Shown here piece after piece: positions 56,208-64,000 of a DNA stretch of 64,000 bases. Within the stretch, counting starts at the first letter, position 1. Each line of letters begins with the position of its first letter. Below the pieces are notes generated by a model that worked only from the letters and a program-made list of their open reading frames with translations, was not told the origin of the DNA and made no database searches. The position numbers were made by a program, and so were the translations under genes. Source of the DNA: Hydrogenophaga sp. (lineage in GTDB: Bacteria; Pseudomonadota; Gammaproteobacteria; Burkholderiales; Burkholderiaceae_C). Where the stretch lies: NCBI RefSeq assembly GCF_030656115.1, contig NZ_JAUSOO010000152.1, forward strand, positions 1 through 64,000, given 5' to 3'.

Positions 56208-56948
56208 CTACAAGCTGGTCCCGATCAGTAGCGTTGCCTCACGCAACAAAGCGTACAAAGTCTCGCTGTTTTCTGTATCGATGCGGGAGCTGCTGCCCAC
56301 CAAGGCCAGCGTTCCAACACAGTCTTGCTCCCCGTTGAGCACGGGGACAGCCATGGCTCCGACGCCTGCTTGCAACTCACCCGTGGAGCGGTAGTACCCT
56401 GTTTGCCTGATGTGAGTGAGTTTGGCTCTGAACTGTGCCCAACTGTCACCCATCCCGTTGGCCGCAATCTCTTCTTTGTGCGCCTCGAAAATCTTCAGGA
56501 GCGGACCCCGCGCTAGCCACGCCAGCAACACTTTGGGTGCGCCTGCACGAAACATGGGGCGGGGACGACCTCGGCCATACAAAAGCTCCAGTCCTTTTTC
56601 ACCGCTCACCCGGTGGATGTCGATCACCTTGGGACCCGCGTACAACACACTCAGTACCGCGTCATAGCCCGTTCGTGCCGCCAGATCCTTCATGACGGGG
56701 ACCGATGCGCTCAACACCGGGTCTGTCTGGCGCAGCTGGAAATCGAGTTCAATGATGCGCCCACCCAGCGCATAGCGACCGGCCGAGATCTTTTGCAGCA
56801 TGCCGGCTTCCACGAGTTCTTTCACGTAGCGGTAGCCCGTTGGCCTTGTGTAGCCCAGTGTTTCGTTGATCTCGTCTGGCTGCCATACAGGCCGCTCGCC
56901 GGTGAAGAGGTCAAGGATTGCAAATACTTTTGTAGAACTGCTGCTCAT
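56208..56948 (-). CDS. IclR-family transcriptional regulator
   Basis: The start at 56948 (MSSSSTKVFAILDLF) gives 246 residues. An N-terminal winged helix (about 5-70: FAILDLFTGERPVWQPDEINETLGYTRPTGYRYVKELVEAGML) is followed by the IclR ligand-binding domain with GAPKVLLAWLARG, TGYYRSTGELQAGVGAMAVPVLNG and LALVGSSSRID. It lies 28 bases behind the VOC gene on the same strand and is the obvious candidate regulator of the divergent catabolic genes. Activator or repressor cannot be decided. Confidence 0.92.
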   Translation of the reverse strand: MSSSSTKVFAILDLFTGERPVWQPDEINETLGYTRPTGYRYVKELVEAGMLQKISAGRYALGGRIIELDFQLRQTDPVLSASVPVMKDLAARTGYDAVLSVLYAGPKVIDIHRVSGEKGLELLYGRGRPRPMFRAGAPKVLLAWLARGPLLKIFEAHKEEIAANGMGDSWAQFRAKLTHIRQTGYYRSTGELQAGVGAMAVPVLNGEQDCVGTLALVGSSSRIDTENSETLYALLREATLLIGTSL

Positions 56949-56976
56949 GTTGCGTGGAGGCCTGTGGCGGGCCATT

Positions 56977-57537
56977 CTAGCTTTGGCTATCCAGCCCCAT
57001 GCGTTTGGCCATTTTTGCGGTCCATGCGGATCGTGGCATGAAGTTGGGCAGTGAGCGTGCATGCTCTTCCAGCCGTTTCATGAGCGCCCAGTCGTCGCCG
57101 GCCAGGTCGACAGGAAGCCGCATGGGTTGCGATACGTACCAGGGCAGGTCGAAGTAAAGCTCCAGCCGGTTTCCTTCTGGATCGCGAACGTAGATGGACA
57201 CGGCATTCCCGTGGGTGACTGGCGTGATGTCATCGGCCCCCTCTTTGACCAGCAAGGCATGCATCTGGCGCAGCGTTCCCAAGCTGTCGGCTTTGAGGGA
57301 AATCTGGTTGATCGGATTGAAGGACGGTTCGCTCGGTCTCCCGCTGATGAGCACGATCTGGTGGTGTTCTTCCGGATCCCTGCTCAGAAACACAAGATGC
57401 ATGGGGCCGTTCGGCCCAGAGAGATCTCCCTGATCTGTCACGGTGAAGTCCAGGATTCTTGTGTAGAAGTCCTCCATCTTTTTTATGTCAGTGACGTACA
57501 TACCGAAGTGGCTGAAGCTGAAGCCGGGTCGATGCAT
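56977..57537 (-). CDS. VOC-superfamily protein (one-domain extradiol-dioxygenase/glyoxalase type)
   Basis: The start at 57537 (MHRPGFSFSHFGMYV) gives 186 residues with one vicinal-oxygen-chelate repeat pair: the ligand-like His10 in FSHFGMYVTDIKKMEDFY, His58/His59 in EEHHQIVL and Glu126 in GNRLELYFD. These fit a metal-binding VOC enzyme, possibly a ring-cleavage dioxygenase or an isomerase. The C-terminal ~55 residues (LPWYVSQPMRLPVDL and on) are an extension typical of this branch. It is divergent from the FAH-type hydrolase, so both probably act in one pathway. Confidence 0.86.
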   Translation of the reverse strand: MHRPGFSFSHFGMYVTDIKKMEDFYTRILDFTVTDQGDLSGPNGPMHLVFLSRDPEEHHQIVLISGRPSEPSFNPINQISLKADSLGTLRQMHALLVKEGADDITPVTHGNAVSIYVRDPEGNRLELYFDLPWYVSQPMRLPVDLAGDDWALMKRLEEHARSLPNFMPRSAWTAKMAKRMGLDSQS

Positions 57538-57559
57538 GGTTTTTCCTCGTAAGTTGCGG

Positions 57560-57605
57560 TTGACAAAATCTTGATATGTGATTAAATCTCGATATACAAG
57601 ATTTT
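57560..57605. promoter_or_regulatory. Divergent promoter/operator of the catabolic regulon
   Basis: A perfect 9-bp inverted repeat AAAATCTTG (57565-57573) / CAAGATTTT (57597-57605) spans two direct repeats, AAATCTTGATAT (57566) and AAATCTCGATAT (57584), spaced 18 bases. Rightward promoter candidates inside it are TTGACA (57560) with TAAATC (57583, spacer 17), or TTGATA (57571) with TATACA (57593, spacer 16). It is the likely binding site of the IclR-type regulator encoded nearby. Confidence 0.72.
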
Positions 57606-57633
57606 GCAACAGCCATTTTGATGTGAGGAATCC

Positions 57634-58485
57634 ATGAAACTGATCAGTTATGTGCACAACGGGCGTGAGGGTTTTGGCGCCGTCACCGCGTCTGGCGTGG
57701 TTGACTTGAACCTGGCGTTGAACAACGCCTTCCCCGACTTGAAGGCGCTGCTTGCAGGAAACGCGCTCTCGCAGGCGCAGGAAGCGGTCAACGCCCGTGC
57801 GGCGGACTACCGCCTGGAGGATCTGGCGTTGTTGCCTGTCATCCCCAACCCGGGAAAGATTTGGTGTTGCGGCTTGAATTACGGCGAGCACGTCAAGGAA
57901 ACCAACCGCGAGGTCACCGAGCAGCCGACATTCTTTTTGCGCGTGGCGGACTCCCAAGTGGGACATGGCCAACCCATGGTCCGTCCTCCGGAGTCAACGC
58001 AGTTCGACTATGAAGCTGAAATCGCCGTCGTTATCGGCAAGTCGGGTCGCAGGATTGCTGAAAGCGAGGTCGCTCAATACATCGCTGGCTACGCTTGCTA
58101 CAACGACGGAACGTTGCGCGATTGGCAGCGGCACACCTCTCAATGGGTGCCAGGCAAGAACTTCTGGAAGACCGGGGGGTTCGGCCCATGGCTGGTCACG
58201 GCTGATGAAATCCCTTTCGGGACGCTGATGACGCTGACCACCCGGCTCAATGGTGTGGAGCTTCAGCGGGCAACGACAGCAATGATGATTCACAGCATTG
58301 CGCGGCAAATTGCCTACGTCTCAACCATCGCGCCGTTGGAGCCAGGGGACGTCATCGTGACGGGAACCCCTGGTGGTGTGGGTGCCCGTCGAACCCCTCC
58401 CGTCTGGATGAAGCACGGCGATGTTTGCGAAATTGAGGTCGACCGCATTGGTGTTCTCAGCAATCCGATTGCTGACGAAAACTGA
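57634..58485 (+). CDS. Fumarylacetoacetate-hydrolase (FAH) family protein
   Basis: FAH-family enzymes hydrolyse C-C bonds in acylpyruvates or decarboxylate/isomerise related diacids. The 283-residue protein has the metal and substrate core: KIWCCGLNYGEHVKETN, FDYEAEIAVVIGKSGR (acidic ligands), GYACYNDGTLRDWQ, WVPGKNFWKTGGFGPWLVT and PGDVIVTGTPGGVGARRTPP. It leads the rightward catabolic operon and is followed after 30 bases by a TRAP transporter. The exact substrate is unknown; an acylpyruvate from ring cleavage is likely by context. Confidence 0.9.
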   Translation: MKLISYVHNGREGFGAVTASGVVDLNLALNNAFPDLKALLAGNALSQAQEAVNARAADYRLEDLALLPVIPNPGKIWCCGLNYGEHVKETNREVTEQPTFFLRVADSQVGHGQPMVRPPESTQFDYEAEIAVVIGKSGRRIAESEVAQYIAGYACYNDGTLRDWQRHTSQWVPGKNFWKTGGFGPWLVTADEIPFGTLMTLTTRLNGVELQRATTAMMIHSIARQIAYVSTIAPLEPGDVIVTGTPGGVGARRTPPVWMKHGDVCEIEVDRIGVLSNPIADEN

Positions 58486-58515
58486 TATTTCCTTTTCCAC
58501 CCTTAGGAGACAAAA

Positions 58516-59544
58516 ATGAAAAGAACGATTTTCAACCGTCGTCAAGCCATCCGTATGCTTGCCAGCACCTGTTGTGTTGCGCCATGGGCTGCCCATGCCA
58601 CAGAGGTCGCCAAGCTGAAGTTCACCAGCTTTGAGCCACCCATGGCCAACATCACGGGCAATGTGTTGATGCCTTTTGCACGCGAAGTCAGCGCTGCGTC
58701 GCAGGGAACGTTGCAAATTGATATGTTTCCTGGAGGGACGTTGGGGCGCAATCCGTTGCAGCAACTCAAGTTGGTGACCGACGGAATCGCAGACATTGGT
58801 TGGATCGTTCTTCCCTACACGCCGGGGCGGTTTGATGACACGGAGGTGGTCGGGCTTCCATTCGTCTCCACCAATGCCACGGAGGCCAGTATTGCGTTGC
58901 ACCGTTTGTACGCCTCGGGTGCCTTGGTCGGATTTGAGGGTTTGAAGATGCTGGCCGTAGGCGCAACGCCTCCGGTGGGCATACACGGTAAGCAACCCGT
59001 CCGGATGCCTGCGGATCTGCGCGGAAAACGTGTGCGCGTGTCTGGCGACCATTTGACGCGCATGGTGGAAGCGTTGGGTGGCGCTCCCGTCTCATTGGGA
59101 GCCGGACAGATTGCGGAGTCGTTATCGAGGGGCGTCGTTGACATGACGTTGAACAATTGGGGCTTCGTCGGTGACTTCAAAGTCAATGAGGTCAGCTCCG
59201 AACATTTTGAGATTGGGCTGGGTGCTGTTGCGGTTGGCGTCGTGATGCGCAAAGACCGTTTCGATGCGTTGCCTGCAGCGGCCAAGTCCGCCATAGAGAA
59301 ATACAGTGGCGAGGTGCTGGCGAGAAAAATTGGCGAAGCGTTTGATCGCCAGGAAAAAGAAGTGCGGGAGCGTGTCTCTAAGTCGGGCAAGAACCAGGTT
59401 GTCCAACCCAGCCCCGCAGACACAGATGCGTGGAAGAAAGCGACGGAGCCCCTCAACGAAAGCTGGCGCATGGCCAAGCCTAGAAACCAGCGAACCTACA
59501 ACGCATTCGTTGAGCAATTGAAGCGCATTCGCGCGGCGTCCTGA
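58516..59544 (+). CDS. dctP: TRAP transporter substrate-binding protein (DctP family)
   Basis: This 342-residue periplasmic binding protein has an N-terminal export signal with a twin-arginine-like start (NRRQAIRML, then ASTCCVAPWAAHA), and the DctP-type fold with PFAREVSAASQGTLQIDMFPGGTLG, IADIGWIVLPYTPGRF and LRGKRVRVSG including the conserved carboxylate-binding Arg. An AGGAGA ribosome-binding site precedes ATG 58516. DctQ and DctM follow. TRAP systems import organic acids, so the pathway's substrate is probably an acid. Confidence 0.92.
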   Translation: MKRTIFNRRQAIRMLASTCCVAPWAAHATEVAKLKFTSFEPPMANITGNVLMPFAREVSAASQGTLQIDMFPGGTLGRNPLQQLKLVTDGIADIGWIVLPYTPGRFDDTEVVGLPFVSTNATEASIALHRLYASGALVGFEGLKMLAVGATPPVGIHGKQPVRMPADLRGKRVRVSGDHLTRMVEALGGAPVSLGAGQIAESLSRGVVDMTLNNWGFVGDFKVNEVSSEHFEIGLGAVAVGVVMRKDRFDALPAAAKSAIEKYSGEVLARKIGEAFDRQEKEVRERVSKSGKNQVVQPSPADTDAWKKATEPLNESWRMAKPRNQRTYNAFVEQLKRIRAAS

Positions 59545-59545
59545 C

Positions 59546-60040
59546 ATGTTCAAGGTCGATGCCACTGCGCGCATGGAGCGCGCAGCGTCCTGGCTCGCCC
59601 AAATGGCGGTGATGGGCCTGCTGCTGCTCGCGGCCATCACCACCGTTGATGTCCTGATGCGCTATGCGTTCGCAAAACCCCTGCAGGGTTATGTCGATGT
59701 CGCCGCATTGGCCGCAGCGGTGCTGCTGGCGGCCTGCATACCGCACGTCCTGGTGAGCCGGGGCAATATTGCCGTCAACGCCGTGGGCGCCTTGCTGGGC
59801 GCACGGGTGCATCGGGTGTTAGACCGGTTCGCTGCTGTTGTCACGGCCACCTTTGTCGGCGTCTTGGCGTGGCAGTACATCTACTTCACGATCGATTTGA
59901 AAAACACATCGCAGGTTATGCCGGTCTTGCGCTGGGTGGTCTGGCCTTGGTGGGCCGCAGTGGGGGTGTTTGTCGGGTTTGCCGCACTTGCCGCATTCGT
60001 GACGGCCTGGAACACGAGCGAAGGAGACCGTCATGGATGA
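59546..60040 (+). CDS. dctQ: TRAP transporter small permease (DctQ family)
   Basis: This 164-residue membrane protein has four predicted helices, starting with MAVMGLLLLAAITTVDVLMRYAFAKPLQGYVDVAAL, which is a typical DctQ pattern. It starts one base after the dctP stop and overlaps dctM by eight bases. Confidence 0.92.
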   Translation: MFKVDATARMERAASWLAQMAVMGLLLLAAITTVDVLMRYAFAKPLQGYVDVAALAAAVLLAACIPHVLVSRGNIAVNAVGALLGARVHRVLDRFAAVVTATFVGVLAWQYIYFTIDLKNTSQVMPVLRWVVWPWWAAVGVFVGFAALAAFVTAWNTSEGDRHG

Positions 60041-61340
60041 CGCCATCCAATTGGCCGGTTTCGGGTTGCTGGCAACGTTCGTCCTGATCGCTTTGCATGT
60101 CCCGGTCGGTATCGCGATGGGCATTGCAGGCGTGGTGGGCTTTGGATTGCTCTCCGGGTTTCATCCGGCATTGGCCATGATGGCCTCGGAAACCTCCAAC
60201 GCACTGACATCGTTGGACCTTTTGACCATTCCCTTGTTTGTGTTGATGGGAGCGTTCGCGAGTATTGCCGGGCTATCGGAGGATTTGTACCGCTTGGCAT
60301 ATGCGCTGGTTGGGCATCGGCGAGGCGGACTGGCCATGGCCACCATCGGGGGGTGTGCGGGGTTCGGTGCGGTGTGCGGGAGTTCTGTGGCCACGGCAGC
60401 GACCTTTGGCAAGGTGTCCCTGCCATCCATGATTCGGCGTGGTTATGAGCCAGGATTCGCCGCAGGAACGGTGGCCGCGGGCGGAACGCTTGGGATTCTC
60501 ATACCACCGTCTTCGATCATGGTGATCTATGCGGTTCTGGCCCAAGAATTGATTATCACGCTGTACATCGCGGCATTGGTTCCCGCCCTGATTGCAATCG
60601 TGTTCCATTTTTTTGCCATCCTGGCGTACACCCAGATTCGACCGCGGGATGCACCGTTGGGCCCCAGGGTTGGCGCTGCCGAACGGTGGGGTGCGGTGCG
60701 TGCGAGTTGGCCCGTGCTGGTGCTGACCTGCACGGTGGTTGGCGGTATGGCACTGGGCGTATTCACTGCCACAGAGAGTGCCGCGGTTGGTGCTGTTATG
60801 GCCTTCGGATTCGCAGGAATGCGGGGCGCCTTGCGTTCGTCCCAGTTGCGATCTGCCCTGTTGAGCACAGCTTCGACAAGCGCAATGATTTATGTATTGA
60901 TCATTGGTGCATCCCTTTTTGGGTATTTTTCTGCAGTGACCCAGGCGCCTCAGGTTCTGGTGGGTTGGGTCGGTGAGGCGAATGTGCCGGTTTGGGTTGC
61001 GATGCTTGCATTGATGGTTCTGTTCGTGATCGCCGGTGCCATATTTGATGAGGTGGCGACCATGGTGATTTCCATGCCGTTCGTTTTGCCATTGGTACAG
61101 AGTTGGGGTTTCGATCCCATATGGTGGGGCGTTATCAATGTCGTCATTATTGAAATTGGAATGCTTACACCCCCATTGGGCATGAATGTGTTTGTTGTCA
61201 AGGGCATTGCACCCCAGATACCGCTGCCTTCAATTTACAGGGGTGTGATGCCCTACATATTGTCGAATCTGTGCCGCTTGGGTCTTCTCCTGGTATTTCC
61301 ACCGCTGGTGCTTTGGCTTCCCCATTTGTTGAAAGGATGA
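60033..61340 (+). CDS. dctM: TRAP transporter large permease (DctM family)
   Basis: The 435-residue polytopic protein has about 12 helices and the DctM phrases ALTSLDLLTIPLFVLMGAFASIAG, GCAGFGAVCGSSVATAATFGKVSLPSMIRRGYEPGFAAGTVAAGGTLGILIPPSSIMVIYAV and TPPLGMNVFVVKGIA. It translocates the bound acid with sodium. Its stop overlaps the hydroxylase start (ATGA at 61337). Confidence 0.95.
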   Translation: MDDAIQLAGFGLLATFVLIALHVPVGIAMGIAGVVGFGLLSGFHPALAMMASETSNALTSLDLLTIPLFVLMGAFASIAGLSEDLYRLAYALVGHRRGGLAMATIGGCAGFGAVCGSSVATAATFGKVSLPSMIRRGYEPGFAAGTVAAGGTLGILIPPSSIMVIYAVLAQELIITLYIAALVPALIAIVFHFFAILAYTQIRPRDAPLGPRVGAAERWGAVRASWPVLVLTCTVVGGMALGVFTATESAAVGAVMAFGFAGMRGALRSSQLRSALLSTASTSAMIYVLIIGASLFGYFSAVTQAPQVLVGWVGEANVPVWVAMLALMVLFVIAGAIFDEVATMVISMPFVLPLVQSWGFDPIWWGVINVVIIEIGMLTPPLGMNVFVVKGIAPQIPLPSIYRGVMPYILSNLCRLGLLLVFPPLVLWLPHLLKG

Positions 61341-62845
61341 GCATGAGCTCGAACATTGACCCCGCTTTTCAAGCGCACATCCAACACGATGTCGCCATTG
61401 TGGGTTTTGGGCCCGCTGGGGCCGTGCTCGCCAATTTGCTGGCCATAAAGGGGCTGAGCGTTCTGGTACTGGATCGGGAAGCCGATGTGTACCGGTTGCC
61501 CAGGGCGATCCACTTTGACGGTGAGTGCATGCGGGTGTTTCAAACACTGGGGATTTCCGACGAACTCATGGCGCAACTCTTTGTCTCGCCTGGCATGAAG
61601 TTTGTCAATGCCGAGGGGAAGGTTTTGATCGACTACACCCGCTCTGTTGAGCTGGGTGGGCAAGCTTGGCACCCAGGCTATCGGTTTCATCAGCCCGACT
61701 TTGAGGACGTTTTGCGCAAAAAGCTGGAGCAATACCCACAGGTTGAAGTTCGGCTGCGACACGACGTTTTTGCCATCACCGAACATGAGGATGGCGTGGA
61801 GCTTCGGGTAGAAGACACGTCTTGCGGACGACTTTTGAAAGCCCATGCGCGGTATGTGGTCGGGTGCGATGGTGCGCGTTCCACGGTCCGTCGGATGATG
61901 GGCACCGAGCTGGATGACTTGAATTCACACGAGCGGTGGCTGGTGGTTGATGTTCTTCTGCAGCGAGAGCGTTCCGACCTGGGTGACCACAGCATTCAAT
62001 ATTGCGACCCACGCCGTCCTGCTACATACGTGAGGGGCGTCGGCGAGCGCAGACGCTGGGAGTTCATGCTGATGCCCGTCGATGATCCGACAACGATTAC
62101 CCGACCGGAGTCGGTCTGGTCGTTGTTGGCGCCATGGGTAACGCCTGCGGATGCTGTGCTGGAGAGGCCCGCTGTCTATACCTTTCATTCGGTGGTGGCC
62201 AAAGGCTGGCGCAATGGCCGTTTGTTGATTGCCGGAGACGCCGCGCATCAGACACCGCCTTTCATGGGGCAGGGCATGTGCGCGGGTGTGAGGGATGTGT
62301 ACAACCTCGCGTGGAAGCTGGCAGACGTTGTACAAGGGCATGCGTCCGAAACGCTGCTCGACACCTACGAGTCGGAGCGGTCTCCGCATGTGCGTGAGTT
62401 CATTGAAACAGCGGTCCGCTTTGGCAAGGTGATTCAAGCCACGGATCATGAGGTCGTCAAAAAGCGGGATGCCAGCATGCTGGCCAACACGGAAGTTTTT
62501 CACACGCCGCAACCGGCGTTGGGTTCCGGGGCGCATGAGGGGGGGCGCATTGCCGGCACAGTATCTGTTCAGCCTGTTCTGAAGGATGGGACGCGGCTGG
62601 ACGATGTCGTGGGGTATCGGTTTGTTCTGGTTGCGAACCCTGACATATGCAGCGACCTGAACGTCACCCCTGATGAGCGCGTTGCGGTCATCCCTGCCCA
62701 TGATCCCTCGCTGAAAAATTGGCTTGAGTCCTTGTCGGCGCAGGCGGTGTTGGTTCGTCCAGACCGCTATATCGCAGGCGCAGCAAGCGATGTGGGCAAA
62801 GTGCAAGACCTCATTCAGGTATTTGTGGGGAGCGCGGTGCTGTGA
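61337..62845 (+). CDS. FAD-dependent aromatic hydroxylase (MhpA-like)
   Basis: This 502-residue class A flavoprotein monooxygenase resembles 3-(3-hydroxyphenyl)propionate hydroxylase. FAD motifs are GFGPAGAVLANLLA near the N-terminus, VVGCDGARSTVRR in the middle and RLLIAGDAAHQTPPFMGQGMCAGVRDVYNLAWKL (GD motif). The C-terminal thioredoxin-like domain is present but short. ATG at 61337 overlaps the dctM stop; ATG 61343 is also possible. It probably adds a hydroxyl to an aromatic acid taken up by the TRAP system. The ring substituent cannot be predicted. Confidence 0.9.
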   Translation: MSMSSNIDPAFQAHIQHDVAIVGFGPAGAVLANLLAIKGLSVLVLDREADVYRLPRAIHFDGECMRVFQTLGISDELMAQLFVSPGMKFVNAEGKVLIDYTRSVELGGQAWHPGYRFHQPDFEDVLRKKLEQYPQVEVRLRHDVFAITEHEDGVELRVEDTSCGRLLKAHARYVVGCDGARSTVRRMMGTELDDLNSHERWLVVDVLLQRERSDLGDHSIQYCDPRRPATYVRGVGERRRWEFMLMPVDDPTTITRPESVWSLLAPWVTPADAVLERPAVYTFHSVVAKGWRNGRLLIAGDAAHQTPPFMGQGMCAGVRDVYNLAWKLADVVQGHASETLLDTYESERSPHVREFIETAVRFGKVIQATDHEVVKKRDASMLANTEVFHTPQPALGSGAHEGGRIAGTVSVQPVLKDGTRLDDVVGYRFVLVANPDICSDLNVTPDERVAVIPAHDPSLKNWLESLSAQAVLVRPDRYIAGAASDVGKVQDLIQVFVGSAVL

Positions 62846-63228
62846 TGGATACGCTGCTGCAGGCCGAACAGTTGCGCGCCGATTGTTTGATTCGCAGGGA
62901 CCTGGAGGCTCTGCGCGACATGCTGTGTGACGACTTGTTCTACATACATGCCACGGGTATCAGGCACAACAAATCGCAACTTTTGAGCTTTTTGGAGAAT
63001 GGGCCGCAGTTTTTGACTGTGGGCGTAACCGATCCGGTGAGCTGTTTGTCCGGTGAGTATGGCGTGGTCACGGGTGGACTTCAGATGTCGATCCTTCGTC
63101 GCGGAGAGGCGATGCCCTCTTTGGTGTCTTCGTGGATGAGTCAGATATGGATTCGATCCGCCGAATCGACCTGCGGTTGGCGGCTGAAGGTTTTTCAATC
63201 AACGCGCCAGGTATTTCAAGATGCATGA
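62845..63228 (+). CDS. NTF2-like (SnoaL/DUF4440-type) protein
   Basis: This 127-residue protein begins MDTLLQAEQLRADCLIRRDLEALRDMLCDDLFYIHATGI, the pattern of a DUF4440/SnoaL cone fold, with HATG placing a histidine in the pocket. The ATG at 62845 shares its A with the hydroxylase stop; a GTG one codon earlier is possible. Such proteins act as small isomerases, hydratases or binding modules in aromatic and polyketide pathways. The role here is unknown. Confidence 0.78.
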   Translation: MDTLLQAEQLRADCLIRRDLEALRDMLCDDLFYIHATGIRHNKSQLLSFLENGPQFLTVGVTDPVSCLSGEYGVVTGGLQMSILRRGEAMPSLVSSWMSQIWIRSAESTCGWRLKVFQSTRQVFQDA

Positions 63229-63661
63229 CCTTCCCGACACACCGTTTCGACAGATGTTGCGAGGCGCAATTCCACCCCCACCGGTCGCCGTTTTGCTGGG
63301 CCAGACGATACAGCGCGTGGACGTCGCTGCTGGAGAGTTGGAGGCAGATTTTGATGCGCTGCCTTCATTCGCGAATCCTGCCGGAAAAGTGCAGGGTGGA
63401 ATGTTGGCGGCCATGCTCGATGCGCTGACCGCAGGATTGGTGGATGCAACACTGTCAATTGGTGAGGGTGTGACCACCCTCAATTTGAACGTGTCGTACC
63501 TATCCCCGGCTGACGTAGGGGCCATCCATGGTGTTGCAAAGCTAAACCGCAGGGGCCGCGCTATTTCAAACGTATCCGCACAACTGACGCAAGGCGGAAA
63601 GGTGGTTGCAACAGCGTCGGCTGTTTGCATGGTTCTCAATACAGATCGGGGACGCCAATGA
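63221..63661 (+). CDS. PaaI-type hotdog acyl-CoA thioesterase
   Basis: The 146 residues show the PaaI-like hotdog core: ANPAGKVQGGMLAAMLDALTAGLVDATL (the usual N-P-x-G-x-x-H-G is here NPAGKVQGG, with Gln in place of His), TTLNLNVSYLSPADVGAIHGVAKLNRRGRAISNVSAQL and KVVATASAVCMVL. The substitution may alter catalysis. It overlaps the upstream gene by eight bases and precedes a CoA-transferase, which fits release or recycling of acyl-CoA intermediates. Confidence 0.87.
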   Translation: MHDLPDTPFRQMLRGAIPPPPVAVLLGQTIQRVDVAAGELEADFDALPSFANPAGKVQGGMLAAMLDALTAGLVDATLSIGEGVTTLNLNVSYLSPADVGAIHGVAKLNRRGRAISNVSAQLTQGGKVVATASAVCMVLNTDRGRQ

Positions 63662-63707
63662 GCATTGAGAACTGCATATGGCGTGTTGTGTTGTGAAGGG
63701 GTATTAG

Positions 63708-64000
63708 ATGATTGACAAAGTGGCATTGTCTGCAGCAGAGGCACTTGGGCCTGTGCAGGATGGGAGCACCATCCTGATTGGCGGATTCGGTACAGCCGGT
63801 ATCCCGAATGAGCTGATTGACGCGTTGATCCAATGTGGTGCTGGCGGTCTGACCGTGGTGAACAACAATGCGGGTAGCGGGGATACCGGGCTTGCCGCAT
63901 TGCTCCAGAGTGGCCAGGTAAAAAAGGTCATTTGCAGTTTCCCAAGAACGGGCGATTCGTGGGTGTTTGAGTCGCTCTACCGCAGCGGCAAGATCGAGCT
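63708..64000 (+). CDS. 3-oxoacid/3-oxoadipate CoA-transferase subunit A, truncated by window end
   Basis: The first ~97 residues are visible: MIDKVALSAAEALGPVQDGS, then TILIGGFGTAGIPNELIDAL and LTVVNNNAGSGDTGLAALL, the signature of the alpha subunit of family I CoA-transferases (PcaI/ScoA-like). The subunit B gene is presumably beyond the window. It moves CoA onto a 3-oxoacid, consistent with late steps of aromatic degradation. Confidence 0.9.
   Translation, partial: MIDKVALSAAEALGPVQDGSTILIGGFGTAGIPNELIDALIQCGAGGLTVVNNNAGSGDTGLAALLQSGQVKKVICSFPRTGDSWVFESLYRSGKIE

Follow-up and report, generated by a model that had tools for sequence, protein, structure and literature searches.

A possible extradiol route to 3-oxoadipate in a conserved aromatic-acid gene cluster of Hydrogenophaga sp.

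Which aromatic compound is opened by a gene cluster that sets an IclR-family regulator, a single-domain VOC protein, an FAH-family hydrolase, a TRAP importer, an MhpA-like FAD monooxygenase (FMO) and a CoA-transferase side by side, and in what form does its carbon leave the pathway? The question is raised by a stretch of 64,000 nucleotides from Hydrogenophaga sp. (Burkholderiales; NCBI RefSeq assembly GCF_030656115.1, contig NZ_JAUSOO010000152.1), referred to here as the window, which covers positions 1-64000 of contig C147 in genome G000, a draft of 190 contigs and 4.8 Mb that is 97% complete; the contig ends at 65735, about 1.7 kb further. From gene content, homology, the conservation of a core and the class of the CoA-transferase and thiolase we propose, with confidence evenly divided for and against, an IclR-controlled cluster for a resorcinol-type aromatic acid, probably a dihydroxyphenylpropionate, with 3-oxoadipate as its exit.

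Gene content and the proposed pathway

An original prediction made from the letters of the window had described one import-hydroxylate-cleave-CoA module. The genes it listed, from IclR to the CoA-transferase, are all present in the order it gave, all ten cluster proteins match Pfam above the gathering cut-off, and the reading as a single module is supported. The sequence past 64 kb, inspected to 65735, adds the rest of CoA-transferase subunit A, subunit B and the start of a PcaF-type thiolase. The features are:

56208..56948, minus strand: IclR-family regulator, 246 aa (Pfam IclR_C 70.5 bits, HTH_IclR 33.3 bits)
56977..57537, minus strand: single-domain VOC protein, 186 aa, 21.2 kDa (Pfam Glyoxalase 49.5 bits)
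57564..57606, no strand: candidate operator, a 10-bp perfect inverted repeat with a 23-bp spacer, in the VOC/FAH divergent gap
57634..58485, plus strand: FAH-family hydrolase, 283 aa, 30.8 kDa (PF01557 223 bits)
58516..59544, plus strand: DctP, TRAP solute-binding protein (PF03480 136 bits)
59546..60040, plus strand: DctQ, TRAP small permease (PF04290 59.8 bits)
60033..61340, plus strand: DctM, TRAP large permease (TIGR00786 291.7 bits, cut-off 268)
61343..62845, plus strand: FMO of an MhpA-like subfamily, 500 aa (NF004829 619 bits, cut-off 390, read from 61271)
62842..63228, plus strand: NTF2-like DUF4440 protein (PF14534 34 bits, cut-off 25)
63221..63661, plus strand: hotdog-fold (PaaI-like) thioesterase (TIGR00369 41 bits, cut-off 36.6)
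63708..64442, plus strand, the window holding 63708..64000: CoA-transferase subunit A of the PcaI class (TIGR02429 349 bits)
64439-65083, on the contig past the window: CoA-transferase subunit B (PcaJ/ScoB match)
from about 65117, on the contig past the window: start of a PcaF-type thiolase, severed by the contig end at 65735

In the proposed pathway DctPQM would import the acid, TRAP systems usually carrying acids, and the FMO would hydroxylate the ring next to an existing hydroxyl group to give a 2,3,5-trihydroxyphenyl acid. Judging from homologues, extradiol cleavage by the VOC enzyme would then yield a 2,4,6-trioxo acid, a beta-diketone from which the FAH hydrolase would release pyruvate and a 3-oxo acid. 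The PcaI/J-type CoA-transferase and PcaF-type thiolase would convert the latter to an acyl-CoA and acetyl-CoA. The derived chemistry runs from R-trihydroxybenzene to R-CO-CH2-CO-CH2-CO-COOH and on to pyruvate plus R-CO-CH2-COOH, in which 3-oxoadipate corresponds to R = CH2CH2COOH. The CoA-transferase and thiolase belong to the 3-oxoadipate class, which makes 3-oxoadipate the most likely 3-oxo acid; the side chain would then be propionate, and a dihydroxyphenylpropionate the likely substrate. Two such acids come into consideration, 3-(3,5-dihydroxyphenyl)propionate, an alkylresorcinol metabolite that would need simple ortho-hydroxylation of the kind performed by MhpA, and 3-(2,4-dihydroxyphenyl)propionate, which would follow the ipso route of HcdA, the FMO of 7-hydroxycoumarin catabolism. 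The original prediction called the substrate unknown. Beyond the 64 kb on which it drew, the PcaJ- and PcaF-type genes restrict the possible product and, with it, the compound from which it would derive.

A broader and more tentative suggestion is that there exists a second, extradiol route to 3-oxoadipate, in which dihydroxyphenylpropionates (for example those derived from alkylresorcinols) would be opened by one-domain dioxygenases with a His-Gln-Glu iron site and the FAH hydrolase would feed PcaIJF with no ortho cleavage. The proposed 3-oxoadipate exit is the new element here, the kind of cluster itself being related to published ones. Titles and abstracts on orcinol or trihydroxytoluene, on alkylresorcinol catabolism, on one-domain dioxygenases with Gln and on 3-oxoadipate together with trihydroxyphenyl compounds or FAH contained no description of the cluster, most subscription journals lying outside this coverage.

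The conserved core and its putative ring-cleavage enzyme

A scan of named genomes with the VOC protein was followed through its best 80 matches, which make up 78 loci of 56-74% identity, more existing beyond these. Within 5 kb of the VOC gene these loci hold an FMO (counted at ≥ 40% identity) in 52, an FAH protein in 53, an IclR protein in 58 and both FMO and FAH in 45; some loci are clipped by contig ends, and FMO, FAH and IclR occur together in 32 of the 48 whose flanks reach 5 kb in both directions. A rough chance expectation for an FMO alone near the VOC gene, based on 18 above-cut-off PF01494 matches in the 4.8 Mb genome, is about 4%, so the association of FMO and FAH in 32/48 full-flank loci goes beyond chance neighbourhood. 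IclR, VOC, FAH and MhpA-like FMO form a conserved core, and this core is a real conserved catabolic module that recurs in Burkholderiales, Pseudomonas and Acinetobacter. VOC matches occur in 35 of the 299 genomes of the window's family, its own included (E ≤ 1e-20), and in 18 plasmid records (E ≤ 1e-15), and a Pseudomonas VOC relative used as query matches 24 of 348 genomes of its genus; 28 of the 41 places besides the window's in the family search, and 20 of the 23 genomes besides the centre in the Pseudomonas-genus search, were taken further.

The fullest relative seen is Rubrivivax albus L066, in which IclR and VOC stand against FAH, FMO, DUF4440, hotdog protein and CoA-transferase A and B, with no TRAP match in its 20.5 kb (the genes of L066, L131 and L139, misplaced by the gene caller, were located by tblastn and lists of open reading frames). 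The DUF4440 gene lies between the FMO and hotdog genes there too, and the hotdog thioesterase is also found in L045 and L052. The TRAP transporter named in the original prediction is present in the window, where DctP, DctQ and DctM stand side by side, but is not part of the conserved core, any DctM match being confined to three of the 78 loci. Transporters differ by locus, with DctP, DctQ and DctM all matching in L071 and L041, pieces of the set in L135 and L140, MFS proteins in L030 and L142, and receptors of tripartite tricarboxylate transporters in Variovorax.

The single-domain VOC protein is the best candidate for the ring-cleavage step, as the original prediction had suggested, and we propose from sequence comparison that it is an extradiol dioxygenase. 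When a profile of 13 VOC relatives was compared with PDB sequences, its closest solved relatives were catechol 2,3-dioxygenase (1mpy, XylE; E 4e-12) and homoprotocatechuate 2,3-dioxygenase (1f1r; E 5e-11), followed by 9u42 (E 1.5e-10). Residues H10, H59, H109, Y116 and E126 align with H153, H199, H246, Y255 and E265 of XylE, of which we take H153 and E265, together with H214, to be the 2-His-1-carboxylate metal ligands; the roles of the other aligned XylE residues are assumed in the same way. Q78 aligns with H214, and on this alignment the full set of ligands is therefore not present. Among 135 VOC sequences, which include near-duplicates (L125/L039, L127/L038 and the Ottowia copies L069, L073 and L074), H10, H58, H59, H109, Y116 and E126 are invariant, and 131 sequences have Gln and four have His at position 78. 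The four His78 proteins (L214, L216, L217 and L218, all from the Pseudomonas-genus search) form one clade (SH-aLRT 99), with neither FAH nor FMO matched close by in their loci; the neighbours in L218 include a FixG-like ferredoxin protein and a putative cyclase. Gln78 is kept in the VOC proteins of all 15 hcd-like loci described below, and the published activity of HcdB, if HcdB belongs to the VOC family, would mean that Gln does not abolish cleavage.

An AlphaFold2 model of the VOC protein (pLDDT 93.4) matched VOC proteins in general, several lying within 1 Z unit of the best Z of 12.4. The top match, 9u42 (148 aligned residues, rmsd 5.2), is tied with 2rk0 and 3e5d; it is a VOC/glyoxalase protein deposited as an Acinetobacter homogentisate 1,2-dioxygenase, is 19% identical to the window's protein in the fold alignment and has His at position 78.

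The IclR-family protein at 56208..56948 is the cluster's probable regulator. The arms of the inverted repeat between VOC and FAH lie at 57564-57573 and 57597-57606 and could form an IclR site; when the 96-bp gap was shuffled by mononucleotide 20000 times, 75 shuffles reached such a repeat. A shared operator was considered and rejected: 11 of 17 VOC/FAH gaps in relatives, their edges taken from tblastn matches, lack a perfect inverted repeat of at least 8 bp, and the other six differ in sequence. No sigma-70-type promoter match was found at 57400-57700, and nothing exceeded the Rfam gathering score across the window.

IclR and VOC are read leftward and the genes from FAH to CoA-transferase A rightward, with operon-like overlaps of reading frames at DctQ/DctM, FMO/DUF4440 and DUF4440/hotdog. 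By reading, the FMO likely starts at 61343 (ATG) rather than 61271 (GTG) and the IclR protein at 56948 rather than 57062; the DUF4440 protein is perhaps a tautomerase. In Ottowia beijingensis (L073, L074) three contigs carry near-identical VOC and FAH pairs; on two of these contigs the stretch retrieved holds the pair twice, and some of the FAH matches are fragmentary. In Janthinobacterium sp. 344 (L082, 6500-19032) two further FMOs come after the core, along with genes for an alpha/beta hydrolase, an IclR regulator and a two-domain VOC protein, as though another aromatic pathway had been attached.

The proposed 3-oxoadipate exit and its alternatives

The thiolase fragment scores 287 bits against 3-oxoadipyl-CoA thiolase (NF006551) and 268 against pcaF (TIGR02430), compared with 135 for a general acetyl-CoA acyltransferase model. 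Subunit A is 69.5% identical to that of L219, which lies beside pcaHG, and 64% identical to that of L220, beside cat genes. In a class tree a branch with 97/96 support separates it, on the larger PcaI side, from the paralogue of its own genome (C47); the C47 protein is the only other such transferase of the genome and has a TctC receptor and succinate-semialdehyde dehydrogenase nearby. The PcaI side also holds L221 and L222, from other contexts, outside a 23-row inner group (91/94). Six of the 78 loci, Rubrivivax albus and five Acinetobacter, have a subunit A no more than 5 kb from the VOC gene, at 57-67% identity to the window's, and all seven core-linked subunits, counting that of the window, lie on the PcaI side. 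Two loci without FMO or FAH matches were not counted as core, L129, with a transferase 7.5 kb off, and L215, with one of 40% identity 1.7 kb from the VOC gene. On a tree of 27 different subunit A rows (five identical copies, L129, L215 and L222 having been dropped from the class tree) a minimum of four changes is required for the label 'beside the core', so that PcaI-type transferases have joined or left the core several times.

Complete 3-oxoadipyl-CoA thiolases stand on the IclR side of two Acinetobacter loci and pass equivalog cut-offs, in L139 (TIGR02430, 731 against 597) and in L138 (NF006001, 725 against 622). In the genomes of six relatives PcaF lies within 1.5 kb at five of 13 places of ≥ 60% transferase identity, two of the five being identical copies, and at none of seven loci of 48-53% identity. 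Elsewhere, L072 has a thiolase 59% identical over 165 residues 1.4 kb from its VOC gene and no transferase match, and in L142 (12458-13450) a BenC-like reductase adjoins the core, with no more than a 48-residue thiolase piece, overlapping the same side, in the place of the complete thiolase of L138 and L139. In Acinetobacter sp. S54 (L131; 1-2133 and 4687-11299) the core with its PcaI/J-type transferase is accompanied by another FMO (36%) with a transferase of the other class; these may represent a sister route to some other 3-oxo acid.

An ortho-cleavage pathway elsewhere in the genome would offer PcaIJF another role. The single PF00775 match scores 75 bits, over the Pfam cut-off of 27; against PcaH, PcaG and CatA, however, the same protein scores 78, 69 and 59 bits, far under the cut-offs of 296, 126 and 392, and because of this no standard ortho-cleavage route to explain PcaIJF was found, nor any standard intradiol enzyme, in the 97% complete draft. 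At C11 a PcaB-like gene exceeds the TIGR02426 cut-off by 3 bits (358.5 against 355.75) but falls short of NF006554. A pca operon at C11 was set aside on account of the neighbours (L229, 19000-38500), which are TcuA, TcuB and a 4-oxalomesaconate tautomerase-like gene, that is, tricarballylate genes; TIGR02426 probably misnames this lyase.

Several observations weigh against the proposed pathway. Compared with a copy at C151 that is 95% identical, the thiolase of C147 has a single 7-base gap that disrupts its frame; an error of assembly or decay of the gene may account for it. No CoA-transferase lies within 5 kb of the VOC gene in 72 of the 78 loci, some of them clipped by contig ends, and the PcaF match is missing from Rubrivivax L066 and from Acinetobacter L131 and L137, with only the short piece already mentioned in L142; in L131 the transferase of the other class lies 8.6 kb from the VOC gene. 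The class of a CoA-transferase is by itself no proof of its substrate. Orthology to HcdA, HcdB, HcdC, FdeC and IfcB was judged by gene context, and the window's FMO, 33-38% identical to hcd-like FMOs and in another clade, may act on a different substrate. The PF00775 match and the PcaB-like gene count on the same side, and pca genes could sit in the gaps of the 190-contig draft.

Of the other explanations, one keeps the three-step opening and changes the substrate to another 5-substituted resorcinol (orcinol, 3,5-dihydroxyphenylacetate or an alkylresorcinol), the CoA-transferase then taking acetoacetate or another 3-oxo acid. By the same chemistry any 5-R-resorcinol would give R-CO-CH2-COOH and pyruvate, and past the CoA-transferase genes of L066 (238-4762) a phosphotransferase-family (APH) gene, an acyl-CoA dehydrogenase and a long-chain acyl-CoA ligase could fit oxidation of an alkylresorcinol side chain; the PcaI-class subunit A and PcaF-class thiolase, here and in Acinetobacter, point away from it, and we regard it as unlikely, if a serious contender. 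The rarity of CoA-transferases beside the core suits this explanation, and equally one in which PcaIJF are mere neighbours, part of a beta-ketoadipate operon continuing past the contig end, and the core ends in succinate and acetylpyruvate as the hcd authors suggested. That the contig ends inside pcaF, that a PcaB-like gene exists at C11 and that the transferase nearest to the window's comes from a pca operon would all fit; set against them are the lack of a standard intradiol dioxygenase in the genome and the same pairing in six other loci (Sphaerotilaceae, Moraxellaceae), recruited more than once and in two accompanied by a 3-oxoadipyl-CoA thiolase, so that we consider mere neighbourhood rather improbable.

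Degradation of a flavonoid or isoflavone A-ring, with C8-hydroxylation followed by VOC cleavage as in fde (Herbaspirillum) or ifc (Variovorax), is suggested by Herbaspirillum lusitanum L134, which has FAH and FMO, a VOC protein with 56% identity to that of the window, and an alpha/beta hydrolase closest, among PDB entries, to 2,6-dihydroxypseudooxynicotine hydrolase (2jbw, E 1.7e-15). The FMO of L134, however, sits on a separate long branch and its VOC protein in a separate clade, TRAP systems usually carry acids, and the Pfam scan found neither such a hydrolase nor a cupin in the window's cluster. This last point counts for little, the ifc hydrolase being dispensable for daidzein loss in the available text (PMC11069340). 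We think this reading very unlikely, and a plain flavonoid cluster was set aside, genes being missing and FMO and VOC lying on separate branches. Least probable of all is a homogentisate-type pathway, in which the FMO would form a 2,5-dihydroxyphenyl acid, the VOC protein would cleave it and FAH would release fumarate and acetoacetate: the FAH family and the deposited name of 9u42 suit it, but 9u42 is distant and has His, not Gln, at 78, and the class of both CoA-transferase and thiolase is that of 3-oxoadipate. Homogentisate dioxygenase by fold likeness was set aside for the same distance and His.

Relation to known systems

The original prediction held that the gene set matched no operon known to it. 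This stands for the mhp, gentisate and protocatechuate operons, set aside on gene content; it gives way where FMO, 20-kDa VOC and 31-kDa FAH proteins make up the hcdABC set (PMC6222606, as far as its available text describes it) and the VOC protein is 56% identical to that of the ifc-like Herbaspirillum locus. If the proposed route to 3-oxoadipate is true, breakdown of hydroxycoumarin, and probably of naringenin and isoflavones, would be joined in one enzyme family for resorcinol-type plant phenolics, products could be proposed for the HcdC-type hydrolase, and there would be a natural extradiol dioxygenase with a conserved Gln at the canonical His ligand position. The core is common to many genomes in which the FMO now bears the MhpA name, and findings on one would inform the others.

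Catabolism of 7-hydroxycoumarin in Pseudomonas mandelii 7HK4 is encoded by hcdABC (Krikstaponis and Meskys, PMC6222606). According to the available part of that text, the FMO HcdA converts 3-(2,4-dihydroxyphenyl)propionate to 3-(2,3,5-trihydroxyphenyl)propionate, HcdB, a type I extradiol dioxygenase of about 20 kDa on a gel, opens the ring to 2,4-dihydroxy-6-oxonona-2,4-dienedioate, and the FAH protein HcdC (31.2 kDa) consumes this compound, its products being left unidentified by the authors, who suggested succinate and 2-hydroxy-4-oxopent-2-enoate (PMC6222606); hcdDEFG are described as a DUF1185 protein, an MDR reductase, a cupin and an FMN reductase (PMC7913881, available part). From the class of the CoA-transferase, the step left open in the hcd papers is probably one in which the FAH hydrolase yields pyruvate and 3-oxoadipate. 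Of 20 loci fetched from the genus Pseudomonas, 15 hold FAH, VOC and FMO together, and L200 adds neighbours of the hcdDEFG gene types (AA_synth (DUF1185), zinc ADH, cupin and FMN reductase) and an FCD/GntR regulator; such loci are called hcd-type by gene content, not by hcd sequences. The window's proteins are 33-38% (FMO), 37-42% (VOC) and 45-48% (FAH) identical to those of the 15 loci, and a quick FMO tree places the window in a 35-row clade (SH-aLRT 99) and the hcd-type rows in a separate 13-row clade (99).

The window's cluster and hcd are alike in encoding together an FMO, a 20-kDa single-domain type I extradiol dioxygenase, putative in the window, and an FAH protein of 31 kDa, and by analogy the ring-cleavage chemistry is probably common to both. 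They differ in that the window has an IclR and hcd-type loci an FCD-type regulator, in the clade of the FMO, and in the TRAP importer and PcaIJF that the window adds. The hcdDEFG types (AA_synth, zinc ADH, cupin, FMN reductase) are absent among the proteins of 56.2-65.7 kb, the part of the genome searched for them. In the same genome, contig C64 (58000-77500; L198) carries a second MhpA-like FMO (NF004829, 551 bits) with an FAH protein 37% identical to the window's, together with genes for a GST, an enoyl-CoA hydratase, a 3-oxoadipyl-CoA thiolase and a relative of the beta-keto acid cleavage enzyme, a parallel module with another exit.

With the fde cluster (naringenin, Herbaspirillum seropedicae) and ifc cluster the window shares an FMO and a small putative dioxygenase of glyoxalase type, which in fde and ifc act on a resorcinol-type A-ring. 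The available texts describe FdeE as a confirmed flavonoid C8-hydroxylase (PMC11303751) and, in the isoflavone cluster of Variovorax, an FMO, IfcA, a 'glyoxalase', IfcB, sharing 66% identity with FdeC, and an alpha/beta hydrolase resembling 2,6-dihydroxypseudooxynicotine hydrolase (PMC11069340). By this likeness the enzymes published as cleaving the A-ring in fde and ifc are probably members of the VOC family. The window's cluster differs in lacking the hydrolase and cupins and in having PcaIJF, and relative to L134 its FMO and VOC proteins lie in other branches.

One-domain type I extradiol dioxygenases have already been published (PMC4250580); likened by the description in its available text, they share the single VOC domain and, putatively, ring cleavage with the window's family, to which Gln at the second His position belongs. 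With mhp (3-hydroxyphenylpropionate) the window shares an FMO in an NCBIfam subfamily named for MhpA, and a LigB-type MhpB, an MhpC hydrolase and MhpDEF are absent among the ten cluster proteins scanned. With the beta-ketoadipate pathway (pca/cat) it shares PcaI/J/F-type genes for the last two steps; unlike that pathway the cluster has no intradiol enzyme, and 3-oxoadipate would come instead by extradiol cleavage and FAH hydrolysis.

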